Shown piece by piece: positions 18,509 through 58,530 of a DNA stretch of 64,000 nt (position 1 is the first letter of the stretch; each line of letters begins with the position of its first letter). This DNA comes from a virus. The translations under genes and the position numbers were made by a program. Below the pieces are notes generated by a model. The model worked only from the letters and a program-made list of their open reading frames with translations. It was not told where the DNA came from and did not search any database. The DNA is taken from positions 1-64,000 of the IMG/VR virus record IMGVR_UViG_3300046782_000222, one strand, 5' to 3'.

Positions 18509-20064
18509 CCGTTGAGCCGAGGCCTTATCAAGCGGAAGCCCTCGCACGCATGGTGGAGCGGGGGAACCAGCTACTCGCCCTCACGATGGGAGCGGGCAAG
18601 ACCGTTACGGCCCTGGCCGCAGTTGAACTACTGGCAGCGCAAGGCCTTGTCCGCACCGGGTTCGTCCTGTGCCCCAACTCGATCAAGTTTCAATGGCTGG
18701 ATGAAATCCGCCGCCGAACAGGAGCGCCGTGCCAGGTCATCGATGGCACACGTGAGCACCGCCTCTTCCAGTACAAACATGCCCGTAGGTACCGCTACAA
18801 CATCAGCAACTACGACACGCTTCGGAACGACCTGGAACTACTGACCAACTGGGTGCCGGTCCCGGACTTCCTGATCGCTGACGAGGCCACCCAGATCAAG
18901 AGCATGCGGGCGCAGCGCTCGAAGGTGTTGAAGCGTCTGGCCAAAGAGGTGCCGTACCGCTTCGCCCTCACCGGCCAGCCCATCGAGAACCGGCCCGAGG
19001 AACTGTTCTCCATCATGGAGTTTGTTGACAGAACAGTGTTGGGTCCGTTCATCAAGTTCGACCGCACCTTCATCAGCAGGGACCACTTCGGGCGCCCGGT
19101 GCGCTACCGCAACATGGAGACGCTGCGGGACTCGATGGCTCCGGTGATGTACCGCAAGAGCCGCAAGGACATCGAGGACTTCCTGCCCACCATCATCCCG
19201 ATGGAGATGCCGATCGAGCTATCCCCTGCGGTGCGGGCGGTCTACGACTTCATGGCACACGACTGCCTGGCTGCCATAGAACATGCCATAGAGGCTGGTG
19301 GGATGGGTAGCTTCGACGTGGCCAGCATCTACGGCCGCTCCGACCACGAGAACGCCAAGGGCAAGGCGATGGGCGAGATCATGGCCCGGCTCACCTGCAT
19401 GCGCATGCTCTGCGACCACCCGGCCCTGCTGCTCCAGTCGGCCCAGGAGTATGACGACCCGGAGTCCGGTCGGGGATCGAAGTATGCAGCGTGGTTGGCT
19501 CACGAGGGCTTCCTGGACGAGCTAGCTGACGACGGCCACCAGAAGATGCTCGCCGCCTGCGACCTGATCGAGGAGATCGTGGGGGAGTCGGACACCAACA
19601 AGGTGGTCCTCTTCGCCTTCTTCAAGCCCATGCTGCGCATGATTCGGGCTGTCCTGGGCAAGCGGAAGATCGCCACCGTCATGCTCACCGGGGACCTGAA
19701 CGCCCAGCAGCGGCGCCAGTCGTTGGACATGTTCCAGGGGCCGTGCCAGGTCCTGCTCTCCTCGGACGCCGGGCAGTACGGCATCGACCTGCCCCACTGC
19801 AACTACCTGATCAGCTACGACCTGCCGTGGTCAGCCGGGGCCTTCGCCCAGCGGGTGGCCCGCATCGACCGCACTTCCAGCCTGTTCCCTCACGTCACCG
19901 TTGTCACCATGATGTGTAGGGGCACGGTGGAGCAGCGCCAGTTCGACATGTTGACTCAGAAGCGCACCGTGGCCGAGACGTGGATCGATGGCATGCACAT
20001 CGACGGCAAGGGCGGATTGACATTGACACTCGACACCTTGCGGGGGTTCCTCCAGGCTGCCTAG
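18478..20064 (+). CDS. SNF2-like superfamily 2 helicase
   Basis: 528 residues from ATG 18478, overlapping the primase by 31 bases. Motifs: Q-like PYQAEAL at 16-22, Walker A TMGAGKT (36-42), DEAT (135-138), SAT-like LTGQP, and in the second lobe LLSSDAGQYGIDLP and QRVARIDRTSS. This is the SNF2-type phage helicase arrangement used in replication or recombination. Ends just before an intergenic promoter region. Confidence 0.85.
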   Translation: MEADTASWPLTVEPRPYQAEALARMVERGNQLLALTMGAGKTVTALAAVELLAAQGLVRTGFVLCPNSIKFQWLDEIRRRTGAPCQVIDGTREHRLFQYKHARRYRYNISNYDTLRNDLELLTNWVPVPDFLIADEATQIKSMRAQRSKVLKRLAKEVPYRFALTGQPIENRPEELFSIMEFVDRTVLGPFIKFDRTFISRDHFGRPVRYRNMETLRDSMAPVMYRKSRKDIEDFLPTIIPMEMPIELSPAVRAVYDFMAHDCLAAIEHAIEAGGMGSFDVASIYGRSDHENAKGKAMGEIMARLTCMRMLCDHPALLLQSAQEYDDPESGRGSKYAAWLAHEGFLDELADDGHQKMLAACDLIEEIVGESDTNKVVLFAFFKPMLRMIRAVLGKRKIATVMLTGDLNAQQRRQSLDMFQGPCQVLLSSDAGQYGIDLPHCNYLISYDLPWSAGAFAQRVARIDRTSSLFPHVTVVTMMCRGTVEQRQFDMLTQKRTVAETWIDGMHIDGKGGLTLTLDTLRGFLQAA

Positions 20065-20118: not shown

Positions 20119-20463
20119 ATGTCCGATGTTGACACCACAGACGAAGTCGCCATCCAAGGCGAAGAGGAGCAGAAGGTCACGGACCGGGTTGCTGAGGCCG
20201 TTGCCGAGGTCAACCCTCCCGGTTCGGCCATCTACCCGGAGAACGACGCCGTACGGGGGGCGATGTCGGGCATGCCTGCGGGCAACACCGATGAGCTTCC
20301 GCCTGGCGCCGACTCGGTCCGGGAGGCCATGAAGGCGTCGCTGACCCCCGAAGAGGTCGAGGAAGGGGACGCCCAAGGAGTGGAGTTCCCGCCCGAGGTT
20401 TCTCGACAGGCGTCCAGCAAGCGCATCGGGAAGGGCAGCGGCGGCACCGACGACGTCGGTTGA
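20119..20463 (+). CDS. Small acidic hypothetical protein
   Basis: 114 residues from ATG 20119, preceded by GAAAGGGG. The product is rich in Glu/Asp and Pro, with little predicted structure. A TACAGT box lies at 20074-20079. It is the last plus-strand gene before a terminator facing the secreted cargo gene. Confidence 0.6.
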   Translation: MSDVDTTDEVAIQGEEEQKVTDRVAEAVAEVNPPGSAIYPENDAVRGAMSGMPAGNTDELPPGADSVREAMKASLTPEEVEEGDAQGVEFPPEVSRQASSKRIGKGSGGTDDVG

Positions 20464-20477
20464 CGGCGGGCAAGACA

Positions 20478-20509
20478 AAGGGCCGGGGTGGTCGAGCACC
20501 CCGGCCCTT
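20478..20509 (+). terminator. Bidirectional terminator between convergent genes
   Basis: Near-perfect inverted repeat (aagggccggggtg / caccccggccctt) with a 6-nt loop, between a plus-strand stop at 20463 and a minus-strand stop at 20541. Confidence 0.75.
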
Positions 20510-20540: not shown

Positions 20541-23500
20541 CTAGGAGGTTTCACACGCCTGGCCGTCGCCGTCGTGGTCGAGGCCACCCGGGTTGGGAAT
20601 GGCGGGGCTGCGGTAGTAGTCCCACCACGCCTGGGCGGCGTTGTGGTTCTGCACGCTGCCGAGGGCACCAGGGAAGTCGGCGCACTTGGCCACGGTGTTC
20701 GGGTCAGGACCAGACGGGGGTGTTGTGACAGCGTCACCGAACCACCCACTCAGGTCCACGATCAGGTCGGTGGCGGCGAAGCTCTTGAAGCACACCTGAC
20801 CCGTCTCCGGAACCTTGACCACCGTCATGTTGGCGGCGCTCACCTGGTGGGCCGTGTAGTTGACCGATGACGTCTTGGTGGTCGTCCCGCAGGGGTACAC
20901 CTGGACGTAGCCATTGGCCGAGGGGTCAGCCACCGTGATGTTGAGCACCGCCGCTGCGATGCCCCGGGGCAGGCCCAGGTCCACGGCAAGCTCCTGGCCG
21001 GGAGCCAGGCGGCTGAACCCCGGTGTGCTGCGGGTGTCGAACAGCCGGGACGGAGCCACGGCGGTGAGGGTGGTGCCATCAGCACCCACGAACCAGCCCG
21101 CCAGGTCTGCGATCACCTGCGTGTTGGCGAAGCTCCGGAAGCAGAGCGTGCCTCCCGGTGCCTCCACGGCGGCGAAGTTGGCGATGGTCTGGCCCGCTGC
21201 GTAGTTCACGTTGGACGTGTTGGCCTCGGCGTCGCAGGGGTAGGCCCTGAGGTAGCCATCAGCCTGGGGCTGGTCCACCGTGAGGTTCAGCATCATGGCC
21301 TCGGCCGTAGCCGGTGCCTCAGCGAGGTTGAACACCACCTGGTGTCCTGCCTGGAAGGCGTTGGGTCGGGAGTCGAGTACCCGGGTCGGGTCCACCGGCT
21401 GGTAGCCCAGCGCTCCGTCCCTATCGAAGTAGCCCGACAGGTCGATCACCACGTCGGTGGTCTGTTGTGACAAGAAGCAGACCCACCCGTCAGCGGGGAT
21501 CGTGACAATCGCCACGTTGCTCACCGTCTGCCCGGTGCTGTAGTTCACCGTGCTGTTCTCCGGGACCGTGCCGCAGGGGTACACCCGCAGGAAGCCGGTG
21601 TCCTGAGGCTGCGTCACCGTGACCGTGAGCATGGCGGCGCTGTGCCCGCCGAGGTTGATGGCGTTCTGCTCACCGGCCTGCACCGGCTGGGCGTCCGTCC
21701 TGGTGTCCACCAGGCGCTCAGCGGGCTGCTGAGTGAACCGGAGGCCCTGGATCTGCGGCGGGGTCACCGGAGGCGCCACAGGAGGCACCACAGGGGGCGC
21801 CACCGGGGGCACCGTCTGGTCCAGGAGGTAGGTCACCGACTGCTGGACGACAGCGCCTCGGGAGTCGGTGGCCTTGACCACGATCTCCAGGTAGTAGTCC
21901 GGCGTGTCGTCCCCATGGCTGGGGAAGACGAAGTCCGGGCTGTCCTGGAAGGCGCCGGGATGCACGTGGCACTCGCCAGGTGAGGGGCAGTGGTGGATCA
22001 CCGGCTGGTACTGGACGCTGACGGCGTCGCCATCGGGGTCCCGCACTGTTGCGTCAACATGGAGGGCGTCACCGACGTGGAAGAGGCCCTGGGGCGGGAC
22101 CACGTTCAGGACGGGGGCGTTGTTGCCCACGTTCACGGTCACCGTGGCCGAGGCCGTGGCGCCCAGGTCGTCGCTGACCGTCAGGATGGCCCGGTAGGAG
22201 CCGGGCGACGTGTAGGTGTGGCTCACCGTGGCCGGGGGCTGGTTGAGCGCCGACAGGGGCAGTGAGCCGTCCCCGAAGTCCATGGTCCACGTGCGGATGG
22301 TGCCGTCCGTGTCGCCAGCGGAGGGAGAGAAGGTCACGCCCAACGGGGACAGGCCGATCAGCGGTGTGCCGACCAGGCGAGCGGTGGGTACGGCGTTGTC
22401 GCCACCCAGGTAGTGGATGCGGGTGATGTGACCGGCCCCGGTGCCAGGCGCACCGATGTCGGACACCATGACGTCGCCGCCCAGGCCCGCTTGGATGCTG
22501 GTGATGGACCCCCACTGGCCGAGCGCACCGAAGGGGTGCTGGTGGTCGCCCACGAACAGATCGCCTCGGGCGTAGTCACCGAACCAGTAGCCCTGCTGGG
22601 CAGCCGGGTAGTTGCTTGTTACGACAACACCACCGACTGCGGCCGACTGAGCGGCCCGACCCACTTCAACGTGGGGCCAGGTCAGCAGAGGATCGGTGAA
22701 GGTGGCGTTGCACTCGGGGCTGTTGTCCAGCGTGGTGACCGTGGTGCCTTCCAGGCAGGGCCAGCCCAGGTTGTTGCCCTTGTTCACCACGTCCTGCTCT
22801 TCGGTGGTGTTCCAGCCCACGTCCCCGACCCGCAGGGTCGAGCCGTCGAGGGAGAAGCGGAAGGGGTTGCGGAGGCCGTAGGCCCACACCCGCTGCGCCC
22901 AATACTCGTCCCGGATGGGGTAGTCGTTCTGGCCGTTGATCTTGGCGGCGATGAAGGGGTTGTCAGCGACGGGCGTGCCGTCCTGGTTGATGTGGAAGAT
23001 CTTGCCCCGAGGCGAGAACACGTCCTGGGCCGACAGGGACGACGGGTCCATGGCGCCGCAGTAGGACGAGCCGTCACCGTTGCCGACGTACAGGGTGCCA
23101 TCCGGTGCTGTGATAACAGTGCCCACGGTGTGGCTGTCGGTGCAGACGGCCCCGTTGGTGGGCGACCACGACGGCAGGTTGTCCATGAGCACGACCTCGC
23201 TGGTGAAGTCGATGCCGGTGGGAGCGGTGGCCGGACCCAGGAGGGTCATCCGGCTCAACCGACCAGTCGGTAGGCCACCATCGGGGATGCAGGCCTGGTC
23301 ATCGGAGGCCAGGGTGGTGGACTGGCAGTAGTCCCACAGCATGTTCACGTGCTTGGTGGTGGCGTAGTCACCGGCCAGGGAGATGCCGAGCAGGCCTCGG
23401 TCGCCCTGGTAGTAGGCGGGCATGTTGCCGATGATGGTGGCGGTGGCGTCCGAGGCGTCCATGCCGTCGCCTGTTACGTCAACACGTGTCACCCGCCCCG

Positions 23501-23699
23501 ACTTGCCGGTGGCCAGCATGGTCTGAGTGCCGGGTATGACCACGAAGTTGGTCAGGTCATACTCGAACATTCCAGCGTCATACTGGACGAGCTTGAAGCC
23601 GGTGGGTACGGACGGGGCCGCACTCGCAGGGGAGGGCGCTAGAGGTATTGCCGCCAACCCCATTGCGAGCAGGGCGAGTGTGATGACTCTCCTGATCAT
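20541..23699 (-). CDS. Secreted quinoprotein sugar-dehydrogenase-like multidomain protein
   Basis: 1052 residues. Signal peptide at 1-28 (RR, hydrophobic core, ASA/A cleavage). Residues about 35-430 look like a six-bladed glucose/sorbosone dehydrogenase propeller: DRGLLGISL, YGLRNPFRFS, VGDVGWNTTEEQD and NNLGWPCLEG are family hallmarks. A PKD domain follows (about 440-525, MDFGDGS...SHTYTSPG), then another beta domain, a Pro-rich linker (about 630-655), three repeats starting (P)(T/S)RxxD(T/S)R (about 660-995), and a C-terminal Excalibur calcium-binding motif (DHDGDGQACE). Such proteins are bacterial surface or extracellular enzymes. In this phage it stands alone on the minus strand behind a terminator, like a moron. 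It also carries several TGTTGnnnCAACA sites, so it is well adapted to this genome. Confidence 0.8.
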   Translation of the reverse strand: MIRRVITLALLAMGLAAIPLAPSPASAAPSVPTGFKLVQYDAGMFEYDLTNFVVIPGTQTMLATGKSGRVTRVDVTGDGMDASDATATIIGNMPAYYQGDRGLLGISLAGDYATTKHVNMLWDYCQSTTLASDDQACIPDGGLPTGRLSRMTLLGPATAPTGIDFTSEVVLMDNLPSWSPTNGAVCTDSHTVGTVITAPDGTLYVGNGDGSSYCGAMDPSSLSAQDVFSPRGKIFHINQDGTPVADNPFIAAKINGQNDYPIRDEYWAQRVWAYGLRNPFRFSLDGSTLRVGDVGWNTTEEQDVVNKGNNLGWPCLEGTTVTTLDNSPECNATFTDPLLTWPHVEVGRAAQSAAVGGVVVTSNYPAAQQGYWFGDYARGDLFVGDHQHPFGALGQWGSITSIQAGLGGDVMVSDIGAPGTGAGHITRIHYLGGDNAVPTARLVGTPLIGLSPLGVTFSPSAGDTDGTIRTWTMDFGDGSLPLSALNQPPATVSHTYTSPGSYRAILTVSDDLGATASATVTVNVGNNAPVLNVVPPQGLFHVGDALHVDATVRDPDGDAVSVQYQPVIHHCPSPGECHVHPGAFQDSPDFVFPSHGDDTPDYYLEIVVKATDSRGAVVQQSVTYLLDQTVPPVAPPVVPPVAPPVTPPQIQGLRFTQQPAERLVDTRTDAQPVQAGEQNAINLGGHSAAMLTVTVTQPQDTGFLRVYPCGTVPENSTVNYSTGQTVSNVAIVTIPADGWVCFLSQQTTDVVIDLSGYFDRDGALGYQPVDPTRVLDSRPNAFQAGHQVVFNLAEAPATAEAMMLNLTVDQPQADGYLRAYPCDAEANTSNVNYAAGQTIANFAAVEAPGGTLCFRSFANTQVIADLAGWFVGADGTTLTAVAPSRLFDTRSTPGFSRLAPGQELAVDLGLPRGIAAAVLNITVADPSANGYVQVYPCGTTTKTSSVNYTAHQVSAANMTVVKVPETGQVCFKSFAATDLIVDLSGWFGDAVTTPPSGPDPNTVAKCADFPGALGSVQNHNAAQAWWDYYRSPAIPNPGGLDHDGDGQACETS

Positions 23700-23774
23700 T
23701 CTACTGTTCTACCTGGTCTTCTACCCGCTTGAACATGGGCTGAACGACCTACTGTGCGTGGATCGGTTCCTGGG

Positions 23775-23780
23775 TACACT
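23775..23780 (+). promoter_or_regulatory. Leaderless -10 box TACACT
   Basis: TACACT ends 7 nt before ATG 23788, which lacks a ribosome-binding site. It begins the second replication block. Confidence 0.5.
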
Positions 23781-23787
23781 GTCAAGC

Positions 23788-24270
23788 ATGCCTGGGAAAG
23801 CAGCACCGACCCCTGAACCTGATCGGCCGAAGCGCCGCCGTGTGGTGAAGCGCACGCCGATCGACATCCGCACCGCTACCCGTCAGTGGTTGCTCGCCAG
23901 CGATGCCGTCGAGCGGTTCTCCAAGGACGTGTCCACCCATCGGGGGATGCTCATGGAAGCCCTCGTGGACCAGGGGACGGTGGACGACAAGGGCAGCTTC
24001 TGGGTTCGTTTCCCCGACGATCCGGTCGAAGGCCGGGTCAAGGGTATGAAGCGTGAGCGCCGGGTGAGCCGGGTCCTCAACCAGGAAGCGGCCGAGGAGT
24101 ACCTGCGGGAGAAGGGCCTGTACAAGGCCTGCACCGAGACGGTCGTCATGCTCTCGGAGGAGAAGATCCTCGACAAGAACTTCAAGGGCGAGATCTCCGA
24201 CGCCGACCTGGACAAGCTCTACGACGTCAAGGAGACGTGGGCGCTGATCGCTGACCGGGTGAAGCTGTGA
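23788..24270 (+). CDS. Hypothetical basic protein
   Basis: 160 residues. Start chosen at ATG 23788, 7 nt after TACACT; the frame is open further upstream but runs antisense to the signal peptide of the minus-strand gene. Basic N-terminus (RPKRRRVVKR), then a helical charged body with paired Lys/Glu (EKILDKNFKGEISDADLDKL). Probably a DNA-metabolism accessory protein by location; no family recognised. Confidence 0.65.
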   Translation: MPGKAAPTPEPDRPKRRRVVKRTPIDIRTATRQWLLASDAVERFSKDVSTHRGMLMEALVDQGTVDDKGSFWVRFPDDPVEGRVKGMKRERRVSRVLNQEAAEEYLREKGLYKACTETVVMLSEEKILDKNFKGEISDADLDKLYDVKETWALIADRVKL

Positions 24271-35111: not shown

Positions 35112-36869
35112 ATGCCCACCTTCTACGGAGCCATCAACCTCTCCAAGAACGAGCTACAGAACGCCGTCGTCCAGAACCTGGGCACGGCGCCATCGTCGCC
35201 GGTCAAGGGCCAGGTCTACTTCGACTCCACCGCCAACATCCTGTACTGGTACAACGGCTCGCAGTGGGTCGCCGCCCAGGGTGGAGCGGGTGCTGTCCCA
35301 GCGGACACGACCACCACGTTGGCGGTGGGTGGTGCGGCAGCGCCAGGTGCGAGCGCTCTCTACTCCCGAGGGGACCACGCTCATGGCATGCCCTCCTTTG
35401 GAGCGGCTACTGCGGACACTGCCTTCGGCACAGCCAAGAGCGACGGTGTTGCGACAACAATAGCTCGCTCTGATCACACGCACGGCAACCCGGCGCTGGG
35501 TACGACACCTTCCACTGCCGCTATCGGTGACGCAGCAGCCGGGGGAGTCGCTACCGATGCGGCCAAGACGGACCACAAGCATGGGATGCCTGCTTTCGGG
35601 GCCATCTCCGGGGAGTCCACCTTCGGTGCCGCTGCATCCAACGGGTCGGCAGCCACCATCGCCCGGTCGGACCACCTTCACGGCAACCCGACCCACGTCG
35701 CTGCGGATCACGCCACCATCCCCATCTCAGCGTTGGCGGCGCCCACGGCTGATGTGAACTGGGGCGCCTTCAAGATCACCAACCTCAACTCGCCCACTGG
35801 GAGCAACGACGCCGCCAACAAGGGCTACGTGGATGGCCTCGTCAACGGGCTGTCGTGGAAGGACGCTGCGAGGGCAGCAACCACTGCCAACATCGCTCTC
35901 ACCGGAACGCAGACGATCGATGGTGTGGCCTGCATCGTCGGTGATCGGGTGCTGGTCAAGAATCAGACGACGGCCAGCGGCAACGGTGTCTACTTCGTCG
36001 CTTCCGGCGCCTGGGGACGAACCACTGACACGCAGTTCGGCACCGACATCGTAGGCATGGCGATCTACATCGGTGAGGGTACGACGCAGGCCGACACGAC
36101 CTGGACGTTGACGACGGACGCCCCGATCTCGATCGGTACGACGAGTCTGGCGTTCGCACAGACGGGCGGTCCAGGGGCGATCACTGCTGGCGCCGGTATG
36201 ACGCAGGTGGGCAACACGCTCAACGTCATCGCCGGGGACACCACCCTGACCGTCGCCGCCGACGACGTGCGGGTGAACACGGCGGTCATCGCCACGGTGG
36301 CCTCGGTAACGGCGGGTGATGCCGCCAACGTACCGAACACCCGGCAGGTCATCGCTGGTGCGGGCCTGACTGGTGGTGGTGCGCTCTCGGCTGACGCCAC
36401 CCTCAACGTGGTCGCTGGGGACACCAGCCTCACGGTCGCTGCCGACTCGGTTGTTGTCAACACAGGAGTCATCGCTCCGACCAGTCGCCTCATCAACACC
36501 ACGGCTCCGATCACTGGCGGCGGCAACCTCACGGCCGACCGGACGATCGCCATCACCAGCTTCGCCGGGAGCACTCCGGGAGCAGTGCCCAACTCACCAG
36601 GAGGCACGACCACCTTCCTGCGAGCGGACGGCACCTGGTCGGCACCAGCAGGAGGTGTCGGCAAGTACGCTGCCGCTCTCACCGGCACGGCCAGTCCCGA
36701 GGTGGTGACCCACAACCTGAACACCAGGGATGTGCAGGTGCAGGTGCTCAACGGGGCCAGTCCTTACACCGCCGTGGTGGTGGACTGGGATGCGACAACA
36801 GTGAACACGATCACCATCCGCTACAACCCGAACCTCGGAGCCGGGTATCGAGTGGTGGTGGTGGGCTGA
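35112..36869 (+). CDS. Tail fibre with DH(x)H repeats
   Basis: 585 residues from ATG 35112 (AGGGGA upstream). Four repeats read (S/A)(R/K)(G/S/T)DH(A/T/K/L)HG(M/N)P between about residues 84 and 195; HxH pairs like these hold iron in trimeric T4-type fibre needles. Then NAANKGYVDG and beta-helical repeats (INTT, ITGGGNLTADRTIAI), and the same C-terminal tip type as the previous gene (HNLNTRDVQVQVLNG). Long tail fibre or shaft. Confidence 0.7.
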   Translation: MPTFYGAINLSKNELQNAVVQNLGTAPSSPVKGQVYFDSTANILYWYNGSQWVAAQGGAGAVPADTTTTLAVGGAAAPGASALYSRGDHAHGMPSFGAATADTAFGTAKSDGVATTIARSDHTHGNPALGTTPSTAAIGDAAAGGVATDAAKTDHKHGMPAFGAISGESTFGAAASNGSAATIARSDHLHGNPTHVAADHATIPISALAAPTADVNWGAFKITNLNSPTGSNDAANKGYVDGLVNGLSWKDAARAATTANIALTGTQTIDGVACIVGDRVLVKNQTTASGNGVYFVASGAWGRTTDTQFGTDIVGMAIYIGEGTTQADTTWTLTTDAPISIGTTSLAFAQTGGPGAITAGAGMTQVGNTLNVIAGDTTLTVAADDVRVNTAVIATVASVTAGDAANVPNTRQVIAGAGLTGGGALSADATLNVVAGDTSLTVAADSVVVNTGVIAPTSRLINTTAPITGGGNLTADRTIAITSFAGSTPGAVPNSPGGTTTFLRADGTWSAPAGGVGKYAAALTGTASPEVVTHNLNTRDVQVQVLNGASPYTAVVVDWDATTVNTITIRYNPNLGAGYRVVVVG

Positions 36870-39061
36870 TGCCGAGGTCCTTCGGCGTCACCAACGCAGC
36901 GCCCTACGCCAGCGCCCCAGCGGTGGGGGCGGCAGGTGACACGTACTTCAACACCACGAACAAGACGATGTACCTGTCGGACGGCACGTCGTGGATCGGG
37001 GTGTCGGCTGGTGCAGGTACAGGTGCGGCGTTTCTTTACGCCCAGGCCACCCAGGTTGGTACGTCGGGTGCGTCTGCGCTTCCCATCACCTGGGGCACTG
37101 TCCTCGGGCAGTCTGGGTTCTCGTCTGGTCCTGGTGCGCTCATCAAGCCGGATGCGGCTGGTCGGTATGAGATCAGTGCTCAGATCACGCTCGTTATGCA
37201 AAGTGCATTGACGGCTGACATTATTGCGAACCTGGAGTACTACTCTTCAACTGGCACTCTCGTATCGACTCGTCAGTTCTACGGAACCGGCGTATCCACC
37301 ACCAACTACTACTCTCAGGTCAGCATCGGCGGCATCTATGACCTGGGTGTTGGTGAGTACTTCCGCATTACCGCCTACCCCATAGGGGGTGGTACGTGGA
37401 CCCTTCACGGTTCGTCGTTCGTTCAGGTCGTTGCCGCCAGCGGAGCGACGGGAGCCAAGGGTGACACCGGGGCTATCGGTCCAGCGGGCACGCCCACGCC
37501 GGATGGCTTCGTTCGTGTGGCATCGCTGACGACTGCCTCCACCGTGGCCGTCCCAGCCACCACCGTGACAGAGGTTGTGCTTCCTGGGGTGTACCAGGCA
37601 CAAGGCTCGACGTACACCAACAACGGACCTAGCACCCGGTTCACGGTCCCCAACTCGGGCGTCTACGACATCAGTGCCTACATCGCTGCGGGTGCAAGCG
37701 CATGGGTTGCTGGCTCTGTTGTCATTCTGCTTGTCAACGGGACTGCCGTCGCCCGCACGCTCACCGAGGTAGCAACGGCATATGAGGGCCACACGATCTC
37801 GATTCAGCGTTATCTCAACGCTGGTGACTACGTGAGTCTGGCGCTCTATCTGCAAGGGGCGAACTCGTACCGTGTTGAGCCGCTCAATGCCAGTAACAAC
37901 CTCGATCCAACTCCTCAGCCGTACCTCTCGGTGTGGCGAGCGGGAGCGGGCCTCCAGGGTGCGCAAGGTGTAGCTGGTACCTCAGGTAGTGCCGTGGCCG
38001 TGCCGCCGCCGTACTACTCGGCTCGCAAGAGCACGGCCACGAGCCACGTGCAGAACACGCCCACGCAGATCGTTCTCGACACGATCATCGACTCGAACAC
38101 CGGGTCGGCTGACTTCTACATCAACAACGGTGGCATCTTCATCGTGGCGTCGGGGTACTACCAGATCGTCGGGCAGGTGATGGTGGCGAGCACAGCGAAC
38201 AACGCCTCCATCTCCATCGATTATTGGACCGGATCTGCGTGGATGGTGGGCGCTCAGAACAACATGGTTGCGGCTCCGGCAGGAGCTACTCCACCGCAAC
38301 AGGTTGTGTGGGAGACGTGGCTGGCAGCAGGTACCACGGTTGCTCTGTTCATCTACTCGACGTCGGCGGCACTGTCCTGGCCTGTCGCAACACAGACCGG
38401 GTTCATCCCGAACATCCCGTCGCTCTCCATCGTCAAGGCGGGCGGGGCCAAGGGTGACCCCGGTGCTGCTGGTGCTGCTGGTATCCAGGGGCCTGCTGGT
38501 ACGACAACACAGGCTCTCGTAGCCCGGGGTGAGTGGACCGGCGCTGCTGCCTACAACCCCTTGGAGATCGTCACCAGGAACGGGGTGGCCTTCCTCGCCA
38601 TGGCCTCGAACACCAACGTCGATCCCGGTTCGATTCCGTACGGCTCCTTCGCCGCCAGCAGTGATGCTCTGGTCGCCGCCATCGGCAAGCAACTCACCTG
38701 GACGCCGGTCTTCCGCCAGAGTGTGACGCTCCCGCTCACTGTCAACAACGCCTGGTACTCCAGGGTGGGTGAATGGGTTGTCGGTGAGGTTGGTGTCACT
38801 CTCACTGGCGCCGGTACAGCCGGGCAGCCACTCCAGATGGATCTTCCGGTTCCGATTCGTAACTATGCGGGTGGTGCTGCTGGTCAGAACATAGGTAACG
38901 CCGTCTTCATCGGTTCAGGAGGTAACCAGTACGGCGCCGTGATGGCGATCTCGGCTACCGCTGTGCAGCTTGCTGTTGGTGGTGTCTACTGGACCGCTCA
39001 GATGGTGAGTGGTGCCTGGATCACCTTCCCCTTCATGTACCTCGCCCCGGTAGGAGTGTGA
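36869..39061 (+). CDS. Tail fibre with repeated C1q/TNF-like jelly rolls and collagen-like linkers
   Basis: 730 residues, ATG overlapping the previous stop. The N-terminus mimics the previous fibre (PYASAPAVGAAGDTYFNTT). Three domains with 'P..GRYEISAQ' / 'NSGVYDISAYI' / 'ASGYYQIVGQV' look like C1q/TNF jelly rolls, separated by short Gly-X-Y linkers (GATGAKGDTGAIGPAG). A C-terminal tip follows. Trimeric adhesin module. Confidence 0.65.
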   Translation: MPRSFGVTNAAPYASAPAVGAAGDTYFNTTNKTMYLSDGTSWIGVSAGAGTGAAFLYAQATQVGTSGASALPITWGTVLGQSGFSSGPGALIKPDAAGRYEISAQITLVMQSALTADIIANLEYYSSTGTLVSTRQFYGTGVSTTNYYSQVSIGGIYDLGVGEYFRITAYPIGGGTWTLHGSSFVQVVAASGATGAKGDTGAIGPAGTPTPDGFVRVASLTTASTVAVPATTVTEVVLPGVYQAQGSTYTNNGPSTRFTVPNSGVYDISAYIAAGASAWVAGSVVILLVNGTAVARTLTEVATAYEGHTISIQRYLNAGDYVSLALYLQGANSYRVEPLNASNNLDPTPQPYLSVWRAGAGLQGAQGVAGTSGSAVAVPPPYYSARKSTATSHVQNTPTQIVLDTIIDSNTGSADFYINNGGIFIVASGYYQIVGQVMVASTANNASISIDYWTGSAWMVGAQNNMVAAPAGATPPQQVVWETWLAAGTTVALFIYSTSAALSWPVATQTGFIPNIPSLSIVKAGGAKGDPGAAGAAGIQGPAGTTTQALVARGEWTGAAAYNPLEIVTRNGVAFLAMASNTNVDPGSIPYGSFAASSDALVAAIGKQLTWTPVFRQSVTLPLTVNNAWYSRVGEWVVGEVGVTLTGAGTAGQPLQMDLPVPIRNYAGGAAGQNIGNAVFIGSGGNQYGAVMAISATAVQLAVGGVYWTAQMVSGAWITFPFMYLAPVGV

Positions 39062-54370: not shown

Positions 54371-55702
54371 GTGACACGTCTCTACTTCGCTGGCGCCGAG
54401 CAGCCCTCGCATCGCAACCTGCTGAGTGACTGCGGCGTCGAGCGCTTCGCCATCAACCTGACCAACATCAACCGCACCGTGAGCGGCGCTTGGAACGTCT
54501 TCGAGCACCTGCCTCCAGGAGCGGAGTGGATCGCCTACGCCGACGAGCAGACCACGTGGGAGATGGCCGAACCCTTCGTGCGCCAGGAGCCGTTGCTCAC
54601 CCTGGGGCCACTGGAGTGGCACACGCACTTCGAGGACGAGACGGCCTTCGCCCCCTTCTACCAGGTGGGCCTCCAGGGCTGGACGTTCCCCACGATCGCC
54701 CTGACGGACGACAACGTGAAGCACCAGAACGTGCTGCGGTCGATCCTGGCGGGCTACCGGGGCAACGCCCTCGTGGCCGTCACCGGGTCGAGCAAGGGCG
54801 GTGTGGAGCGCTTGGACGCTCTCGTCACCAGCGCCTGGTTCGCCGCTCAGCGCTTCGGAGAGACGCAGGTGTGGGGAGGAACCAAGCTGCATCGCTACGC
54901 AGGCTCACGCAAGGCTGAGGCCCGTCCCAAGCACCGTGCCGACATCGAGCGGCTGGGCATCGACTACCGGCTGATCGAGGCCGACGATCCCGAGGAAACG
55001 GCCCGCCTCGCTGTTGTGTCATGGCTCGCCTGGGAGGAACGCCATGCTGTGACAGCACCGAACCTCCTCTCGCTGTCAAGCACAGAGGAGTACTCGGATC
55101 AAGACGGGATGGGATCGGCGCACGTGGGCCTTGCCAGCGTCACCTCCAAAGCCCGGCACGATCGAGAGCAAGTCCTGCTGCCGGTGATGGGCTTGGAAGA
55201 CCACGAGGAGCGGACGGTTGACGGCGAGGGCCGGGAGACGGTCACGACGCATCAGTCGGTCCGAGGTGTGGGCGAACTCATGCGCTCGTGTGACTCGTGC
55301 TTCCTGGCCCCGAGGTGCCCGGCCTTCCAGCCTCAGCACACGTGCGCCTTCAAGATCCCGGTCGTGATCAGGAGCAAGGACCAGCTACAGGGCCTCATGC
55401 GGTCCGTGATCGAGATCCAGGGCCAGCGGGTGCTCTTCGCCCGGTTCGCAGAAGAGATTGAGGGCCAGGGCCTCAACGGCGACCTCTCGGCCGAAATCGA
55501 CCGGCTGTTCAAGAGCCTGGCAGCGATGAAGGACATCAACGACACCCGGGACGTGCTCCGGCTAGAGCTAGAGGCCAAGGGCAACAGCGGGATGCTGTCC
55601 CGTCTGTTCGGCGCCGATGTCGGCAACACGGCCAAGGCCTTGCAGGCTCCCCTGCACTCTGATCAGGTCTTGGACGCCTTCGAGCGCACTCCGCAGCATT
55701 GA
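54371..55702 (+). CDS. Conserved phage protein with Cys cluster
   Basis: 443 residues from GTG 54371. N-terminal half is alpha/beta (RLYFAGAEQPSHRNLL, LVAVTGSSKGG), reminiscent of a TIM-barrel-like fold. A Cys cluster (CDSCFLAPRCPAF..HTC) lies near 310-330. The C-terminal helical part (RVLFARFAEEIEGQGL...SAEIDRLFKSLAAMK) resembles small-terminase-type helices in other phages, so a packaging role is possible but unproven. Confidence 0.5.
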   Translation: MTRLYFAGAEQPSHRNLLSDCGVERFAINLTNINRTVSGAWNVFEHLPPGAEWIAYADEQTTWEMAEPFVRQEPLLTLGPLEWHTHFEDETAFAPFYQVGLQGWTFPTIALTDDNVKHQNVLRSILAGYRGNALVAVTGSSKGGVERLDALVTSAWFAAQRFGETQVWGGTKLHRYAGSRKAEARPKHRADIERLGIDYRLIEADDPEETARLAVVSWLAWEERHAVTAPNLLSLSSTEEYSDQDGMGSAHVGLASVTSKARHDREQVLLPVMGLEDHEERTVDGEGRETVTTHQSVRGVGELMRSCDSCFLAPRCPAFQPQHTCAFKIPVVIRSKDQLQGLMRSVIEIQGQRVLFARFAEEIEGQGLNGDLSAEIDRLFKSLAAMKDINDTRDVLRLELEAKGNSGMLSRLFGADVGNTAKALQAPLHSDQVLDAFERTPQH

Positions 55703-55867: not shown

Positions 55868-57205
55868 TCAGACCGGGAGTGTGAACCCCCGCCCCTTGAC
55901 TTCGATGAGGCCCTGCTCCACCGCCAGGTCGAGCGCCGCCCCGCACCGCTCCGGGTGGGCCATGAAGCGGTTGGACTTGCGCATGACGTCCCGCTTCGAG
56001 AAGTCCGGGCCGACCTTCTGAGCGATCGCCATCAGGTGGACCAGGTCGTCGTCAGCGAAGCTGGCGCCCATCTCCCCGAACGCCCGCTTGGCGTCGATCA
56101 TCAGCGCCCGCAGGATGGCCTTGGCCGCTCCGGTGTCGTTCAGCGTCACCGTGTCCCGGCCGTTGACGATCGCCATGATGGCGGCGAGGCGGATGAAGTG
56201 ACCACCACGGACCTTGGAAGCCCAGGCGGCGATCGAGCCGAGCATGCCGTCCGGCGCCATCAGCGGCTCAATCTCGTCCCGCCACTTCCCAATCTCCCGC
56301 ACGGCGTCGCCGTTCCAGGTGATGGACTTGGGGTCCTTGTCGGAGTACCCCTTGACGATCCGAAGCATCTCGGCCTCGTACTCGCCCTGGGCCTCCGGGC
56401 TGGTCAGGTGCGGGCGGCTGATCCGCTGGCCGATCAGCGACTCCGGGTAGCTGATCAGGAACCGGGGCATCACGCCACGGTTCACCATGTCGGCGCCCAG
56501 GCTGTTCAGCACCGTGGGCTGCATCGCCAGCATCATGGTCAGGACCGGGCGGGCGATGGTCACCTGGCCGGTGCCACGACGGGCCTGCGTCAGCGTCTCG
56601 CCGTCGTAGCCCTTCAACAGGGCTTCCTTGGACCCGCCCCGGAAGTTGAGCAGACCCTCGGCCTCCGGGGAGGCGATGACCACCCGGCCGTTGTTGTCCT
56701 GCAACGCATCGATGAGCGCCGCAGGCGTGGCGTCGGTGAGGACGACCTGGGGGACCGCCTGGGAGGCCGACAGGCTCATGGCCCGCTCCGCAGCGGCAAC
56801 CTCGGCCACGGCCTCTTCGATGGTCATGTTGCCCTTGGCGACCTCGTTCATCGCCTTGGCCTCGACTCGCTTGACGTACTTGCGGTTGACCCGGTTCCGG
56901 ATGGCCTGGTACTTGGCGTCAGCGGCCTGCGTCACACCCGTCACATCGGTGAAGGCCCGGGTGACGGGGTCGAGCAGACGGGAGTAGACGGGGGACTTGC
57001 CCTCGCCCGAGGCCAGGAGAGCCAGGGTGTAGAGCGTGGCTGGTTCCTTCCAGCCGGGGACCGGCATGGTGTTGGCACCGCCATTGATGGCTGAGGACAC
57101 GGCGCCCAACGACAGAAGGGCGACCGCATCGGTCGGGACCTGCAACTCGTCAGCCGTCTCGGTGACGAAGTCTGAGAGCCAGGAGGGAAGGTGATCGGTG
57201 AGCAT
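55868..57205 (-). CDS. DUF3987-like ATPase
   Basis: 445 residues from ATG 57205. Walker A-like SGEGKSP at 66-72; then 'PQVVLTDATPAALIDALQDNNGRVVIASPEAEGLL' type segment and 'ARPVLTMMLAMQPTVLNSLG', matching DUF3987/YfjI proteins of plasmids, prophages and ICEs, thought to act in replication. Helical C-terminus with a winged-helix-like end. It has its own promoter under two operator-like repeats. Confidence 0.75.
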   Translation of the reverse strand: MLTDHLPSWLSDFVTETADELQVPTDAVALLSLGAVSSAINGGANTMPVPGWKEPATLYTLALLASGEGKSPVYSRLLDPVTRAFTDVTGVTQAADAKYQAIRNRVNRKYVKRVEAKAMNEVAKGNMTIEEAVAEVAAAERAMSLSASQAVPQVVLTDATPAALIDALQDNNGRVVIASPEAEGLLNFRGGSKEALLKGYDGETLTQARRGTGQVTIARPVLTMMLAMQPTVLNSLGADMVNRGVMPRFLISYPESLIGQRISRPHLTSPEAQGEYEAEMLRIVKGYSDKDPKSITWNGDAVREIGKWRDEIEPLMAPDGMLGSIAAWASKVRGGHFIRLAAIMAIVNGRDTVTLNDTGAAKAILRALMIDAKRAFGEMGASFADDDLVHLMAIAQKVGPDFSKRDVMRKSNRFMAHPERCGAALDLAVEQGLIEVKGRGFTLPV

Positions 57206-58493: not shown

Positions 58494-58530
58494 GTCAATG
58501 TCAATGGTGTTGTGACGATGTTATCACATC
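58494..58530. promoter_or_regulatory. Operator and doubled-repeat cluster upstream of the membrane protein
   Basis: gtcaatgtcaatg (58494-58506) is followed by TGTTGTGACGATG (58508-58520) and the near-palindrome GATGTTATCACATC (58517-58530). Both repeat families lie side by side before ATG 58478. Confidence 0.5.

Follow-up and report, generated by a model that had tools for sequence, protein, structure and literature searches.

We describe a phage-borne, host-derived auxiliary gene that encodes a large exported protein built around a glucose/sorbosone dehydrogenase (GSDH)-like propeller. The gene is complete (positions 20541-23699, minus strand, 1052 aa) and lies in a 64-kb window, the whole stretch of 64,000 nucleotides that we analyzed, which is part of a 64.4-kb virus record. 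The account that we prefer, and hold tentatively, is that of an exported, wall-tethered GSDH-PKD protein of actinobacterial origin that has been kept by a phage clade and that may alter the surface sugars of the infected cell.

The reading frame is uninterrupted over its 1052 codons and its codon usage is phage-like (GC3 of 0.871, versus 0.857 +/- 0.040 for the other genes longer than 900 nt). Two further contigs, of 32 kb and 118 kb, contain the DNA that bears it; they are collinear and 99.99% identical across the whole overlap, and genes for TerL, portal and major head proteins are present on the longer one. A fourth contig, L211 (IMGVR_UViG_3300048088_000132, 58.8 kb), has at this position and in this orientation a homologue of 999 aa with 67% identity across residues 1-987. 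The chimeric join with host DNA that the initial annotation had considered is thus ruled out: three contigs are collinear, a fourth has the homologue in synteny, and the ORF stands as a phage-borne gene. Searching PHROGs and an annotated phage collection with the protein gave no full-length match.

The gene sits between helicase and SSB. The left flank of the insertion site is g115, a SNF2-type helicase (18550-20064, plus strand; Pfam, synteny), followed by g116, an acidic protein of 114 aa convergent with our gene (20119-20463, plus strand), a similar small acidic ORF being visible in L211. The right flank, defined by synteny, is the divergent g118 (23683-24270, plus strand), with a true start probably near 23788, an estimate that rests on a related contig, L116, whose g118 begins about 100 bp past the helicase. 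Within the replication block ours is the sole minus-strand gene, as had been noticed from the sequence, though minus-strand cassettes exist elsewhere in the phage. The claim that it has its own terminator also stood: a strong, probably bidirectional hairpin at 20477-20509 (RNA fold z of about -4.3 on the minus strand and -4.6 on the plus strand) is common to the gene and g116, and the L211 homologue also ends in a hairpin, at the equivalent position and of different sequence. A scan for consensus promoters near the gene found nothing.

This phage is distantly related to the Streptomyces myoviruses of the BRock group. Its TerL is 45-46% identical to those of Streptomyces phages LuckySocke, Alone3, BRock, pSt2308 and GiJojo, and it shares with these relatives the gene order DnaB-primase-helicase-SSB-PolI-RecA. 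It encodes a WhiB protein (8.4e-23), matched in only one of 14 control genomes, that of Corynebacterium glutamicum, which points to an actinobacterial host; from sequence likeness, WhiB and TerL together indicate a host in the Actinomycetota. Tyrosine and serine integrases (PF00589, PF00239) were sought in the 118 kb, of a contig that may be incomplete, and gave no match, and BRock, a related isolate, is described as a virulent myovirus (PMC7453282). The proposal of a lysogeny-era moron is therefore unsupported, and we rejected a lysogeny gene, or a moron expressed from the prophage of a temperate phage with an integrase. Elsewhere in the window we observed a divergent pair at 58524-61688 that by eye resembles a VWA/CobT-like protein, g167 (minus strand; its longer reading is without a Pfam match), and a MoxR-type AAA ATPase, g168 (plus strand); a Ku-like DNA end-binding protein at 61797-62591 (phrog_4873, 5e-13); a queuine tRNA-ribosyltransferase-like gene at 54371-55702 (phrog_887, 4e-30), making DNA base modification possible; a DUF3987 protein near the right end at 55868-57205 (minus strand, 6e-58); and, at 35112-39061, the virion or fibre-like g134/g135 with BclA_C and collagen-like parts, codon-usage outliers (GC3 0.70-0.78), which suggests a recently exchanged module.

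The flanking replication proteins compared between this phage and L211 are 55-66% identical; the divergence of the GSDH-like gene is thus on a par with that of its neighbors, as expected of vertical inheritance. It is under purifying selection, as the replication genes are: dN/dS is 0.37 for the gene and 0.32-0.44 for helicase, PolI, DnaB, UvsX and SSB (Nei-Gojobori against L211, with dS from this simple method on GC-rich codons), and by domain pN/pS is lowest in the propeller (0.40) and highest in PKD (0.83), these figures and that of retention resting on two distinct phage orthologues. Some 25 related viral contigs preserve the block helicase-g118-g119-SSB-PolI (g118 was undetected in a few), and the GSDH gene was found in none of them. 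In the closest, L116 (helicase 56%), some 100 bp separate helicase and g118 and the site is empty; its 36-kb contig gave no match. These scans rely on short peptide patterns, which did not fit L211, and the first scans missed it; phage counts for the gene are therefore lower bounds and it may be commoner. A first single-protein scan of genome contigs found no relative. With the empty site in relatives, the tree discussed below and the hairpin terminator, we see a host-derived gene, probably with its own regulation, inside a syntenic block, that is, a moron or auxiliary gene. The long residence that had been read from its repeats is backed by the syntenic homologue, not by the repeats. A neutral passenger, recently acquired and decaying, would agree with the gene being present in just two of the phages recovered here and with the divergence of the protein from its bacterial family. 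Yet the gene is intact in both phages, at the same site, under purifying selection and with its cysteines kept, so that this reading is already largely refuted and scarcely credible.

Many bacteria have homologues, 28-36% identical, that combine signal peptide, GSDH, PKD and Ig-like parts, the best being from four genomes of the order of Kribbella antiqua (L194-L197) and one acidimicrobial genome (L198). In a tree of 88 rows the phage protein groups with these five (SH-aLRT 99), and with L211 included its protein is sister to that of our phage (100/100), the pair joining the GSDH-PKD subfamily (100/99). Phylogeny against bacterial homologues hence places the phage pair with an actinobacterial subfamily; the identity and history of the gene are well supported, and the donor to a phage ancestor was probably an actinobacterium. 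The pair stands on a long stem (1.11), which would reflect either a donor lineage missing from the sampling or fast evolution along the phage branch.

Other phage contigs carry GSDH propellers that fall elsewhere in the tree, and a common origin with them was rejected. In L102-L110 (about 6.4-14.0 kb per full-length locus) we observed the propeller embedded in probable virion proteins, some 2,400 aa long, that have many histidine-rich repeats, and in L212 (5697-11177) and L213 (6603-9989) in Calx-beta-like repeat proteins. Propellers inside such large probable virion proteins would lend themselves to a reading in which our protein is an adhesin displayed on the particle, binding the host surface in adsorption. 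But those virion-type propellers are separate tree lineages, and a virion role is disfavored by the signal peptide and by the location of the gene, which sits within the replication block, on the other strand and well away from structural genes; we consider it very unlikely.

The protein opens with a signal peptide (residues 1-27, MIRRVITLALLAMGLAAIPLAPSPASA followed by AP; 23619-23699, from the sequence and a crude hydrophobicity scan), and its start aligns with those of the bacterial homologue L194 (MLRRLLVTLPALAL) and of L211. The GSDH beta-propeller follows (residues 28-430; 22410-23618; Pfam, AF2, Foldseek and alignment), matched by Pfam GSDH (PF07995) at residues 54-344 with 1.4e-21 and 77.6 bits against a gathering threshold of 25, and then a PKD domain (residues 435-524; 22128-22397; PKD_4, 8e-15, also above threshold). 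A second Ig-like domain, absent from the domain list of the initial annotation, spans approximately residues 527-625 (21825-22121; homologue alignment and AF2 beta strands) and carries a HHCPSPGECHVHP motif common to the phage protein and its bacterial homologues. Past a proline-rich linker evident in the sequence (about residues 626-652; 21744-21824) come three TRxxDTR repeats that read RLVDTR, RVLDSR and RLFDTR: residues 653-766 (21402-21743; self-alignment and homologues), 767-878 (21066-21401; self-alignment) and 879-990 (20730-21065; a jelly-roll-like beta sandwich by AF2 and Foldseek). The last part is an Excalibur-like C-terminal domain (about residues 1003-1052; 20544-20693; motif and weak Pfam match). 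All these features lie on the minus strand. The signal peptide, propeller, PKD domain and three repeats listed initially are thus confirmed by Pfam, alignment or sequence; of the Excalibur claim, the canonical DHDGDGQACE motif with its Cys held up, while the Pfam score fell below the cut-off (15.3 versus 22 bits). The homologue in L211 ends earlier and lacks this domain, which the two phages thus do not have in common. L211 retains all 14 cysteines that lie outside the Excalibur-like domain (the remaining two are inside it), which fits an exported, disulfide-bonded protein, probably a disulfide-rich one. The description of an exported, GSDH-like, phage-borne protein foreign to replication is upheld. 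Outside the window, g056 (122 aa, G002:C1:23970-24338, minus strand) has a lipoprotein-like signal (LLCVSC) and may be a second protein that this phage exports.

The TRxxDTR repeat is modeled as a beta sandwich (AF2 pLDDT 93.9) with weak Foldseek matches to fibre tips, BclA/C1q-like and CBM6/CBM35 domains. The initial annotation took the repeats to be of phage type. We rejected a phage derivation: no other protein of this phage has the repeat, only seven other viral contigs were found to encode it (a lower bound), and it is a module common in secreted actinobacterial proteins. Among those seven, the domain comes after Amidase_2 in L203 and L204 (the L204 ORF recurs in L205 and L206), L202 and L208 encode what by eye resemble other lysins, without Pfam match, and L207 a different secreted protein; the lysin or lysin-like ORFs with TRxxDTR tails lie at L203:5455-6312, L204:1898-2743, L202:5386-6309 and L208:1300-2307. 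The tail of an endolysin usually targets the wall. By analogy, tethering to the wall is the best inference for the repeats of our protein, and TRxxDTR is a candidate new cell-wall-binding domain.

What the propeller may do is less clear-cut. Its core model (35-row alignment) reaches a pLDDT of 85, and the best solved structures found by Foldseek are PQQ sugar dehydrogenases, 3a9g at the top (E 1.5e-17, TMt 0.80), 3das and 2g8s, with Hedgehog-interacting protein propellers also among the matches. In the alignment His190, Asp209, Arg277 and Asn278 are kept; His190 corresponds to His144 of sGDH, its catalytic residue (PMC6881789), and with Arg277 and Asn278 completes the catalytic His and Arg-Asn pair of Asd and sGDH. 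The catalytic His, Asp and Arg-Asn are common to both phages and the bacterial family. So the loss of the active site with a high dN/dS that had been contemplated is contradicted by a conserved catalytic-site core and a dN/dS of about 0.37. The PQQ site is retained only in part, the catalytic residues being kept and an R-x-R pair missing. The R-I-R of Asd that contacts PQQ in the last blade aligns with S-I-T in our protein and mostly with G-P-V in the bacterial subfamily. We take its arginines to be Arg406 and Arg408 of sGDH. As the pair is missing across the whole GSDH-PKD subfamily, dehydrogenase activity is not assured and PQQ use is unproven for all of it; judging from these residues, PQQ binding and oxidation may not occur in our protein. 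The curated cut-off of NCBIfam TIGR03606 (non_repeat_PQQ) was not reached (27.9 versus 434.55 bits), and the phage protein keeps 69 of the 90 family-conserved positions (those conserved in at least 85% of the family), proportionally fewer than any other protein in the set.

These observations bear on two other readings. An extracellular PQQ-dependent aldose dehydrogenase could oxidize sugars from the environment, feed electrons to the host respiratory chain and raise phage yield, as an auxiliary gene for energy or carbon; the fold, nearest to 3a9g, 3das and 2g8s, and the kept His and Arg-Asn agree with it, as does the listing of AA12 quinoprotein genes from mangrove soil viruses (PMC6460857). 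Still, the absence of the two arginines that contact PQQ in solved homologues weakens a redox role, a diffusible sugar dehydrogenase would not need a large wall- or glycan-binding tail, and no gene for PQQ synthesis came to notice on the phage, so we find this reading unlikely. Alternatively, the propeller could be a non-catalytic scaffold for glycans or proteins, like animal Hedgehog-interacting protein, blocking receptors or gluing infected cells together. The loss of the PQQ arginines across the subfamily, the Hedgehog-interacting propellers among the structural matches and the many adhesin-type beta modules argue for such a surface binder, which is nonetheless doubtful given the conservation of the catalytic His, Asp and Arg-Asn in two phages and the bacterial family.

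We therefore prefer an exported, wall-tethered propeller, kept by selection, that would act on or bind a surface sugar, because this reading uses all the parts of the protein. In this scenario, an ancestor of the phage would have acquired a GSDH-PKD gene from an actinobacterium and its clade would have retained it under purifying selection. During infection, a transcription unit of its own would yield the protein, which would be carried across the membrane by its signal peptide and anchored on the host wall by the PKD/Ig and TRxxDTR modules, and in this copy by the Excalibur-like domain too. There, the propeller would have as its target a sugar of the envelope or the extracellular space, which it would most likely oxidize or modify in another way, and the surface of the infected cell would be changed, for instance by being masked or by losing its use as a receptor to further phage. 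A bolder version, in which the wall-docked enzyme oxidizes the glycans of the infected cell without the classical PQQ arginines and so brings about chemical superinfection exclusion, seems to us quite improbable.

Most auxiliary genes of phages act inside the cell. A large multi-module protein, exported, probably wall-associated and found at one site in probably virulent actinophages, suggests an investment in altering the exterior of the infected cell. The analysis further draws attention to a GSDH-PKD subfamily whose members are annotated as PQQ-dependent, yet miss part of the PQQ site, and to a widespread, unnamed TRxxDTR domain with a hint of cell-wall binding, since several phages put it at the end of an endolysin.

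Among known systems, Asd (2g8s, 3a9g, 3das) and sGDH (1c9u) share with our protein the propeller fold and the positions of the catalytic His and Arg-Asn, but are at most about 20% identical to it; in our protein the Arg pair and the EHGP loop are replaced and extra domains are present. A literature search on phage PQQ sugar dehydrogenases returned nothing beyond one listing, that of AA12 quinoprotein glucose/sorbosone dehydrogenase genes on mangrove soil viral contigs (PMC6460857), which is made by family, on short contigs, and comes without architecture or synteny. The propellers of L102-L110, L212 and L213 are phage-borne like ours, but they are embedded in probable virion proteins that reach about 2,400 aa in length, and they form separate lineages. 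Borockvirus BRock and GiJojo/LuckySocke have the same backbone (TerL 45-46%, DnaB-primase-helicase-SSB-PolI order), but small ORFs occupy the interval in place of a GSDH-like gene. The bacterial secreted GSDH-PKD proteins annotated as "PQQ-dependent sugar dehydrogenase" (L194-L197, L198, Nonomuraea, Myxococcaceae) have, like ours, a signal peptide, a propeller, PKD and an Ig-like domain with HC..CH.HP, L194 being 35% identical to it across some 620 residues. Their tails differ, with LGFP repeats in L194 and other tails elsewhere, whereas ours has three TRDTR repeats and an Excalibur-like domain, and their genes are chromosomal, while ours is carried by a phage.
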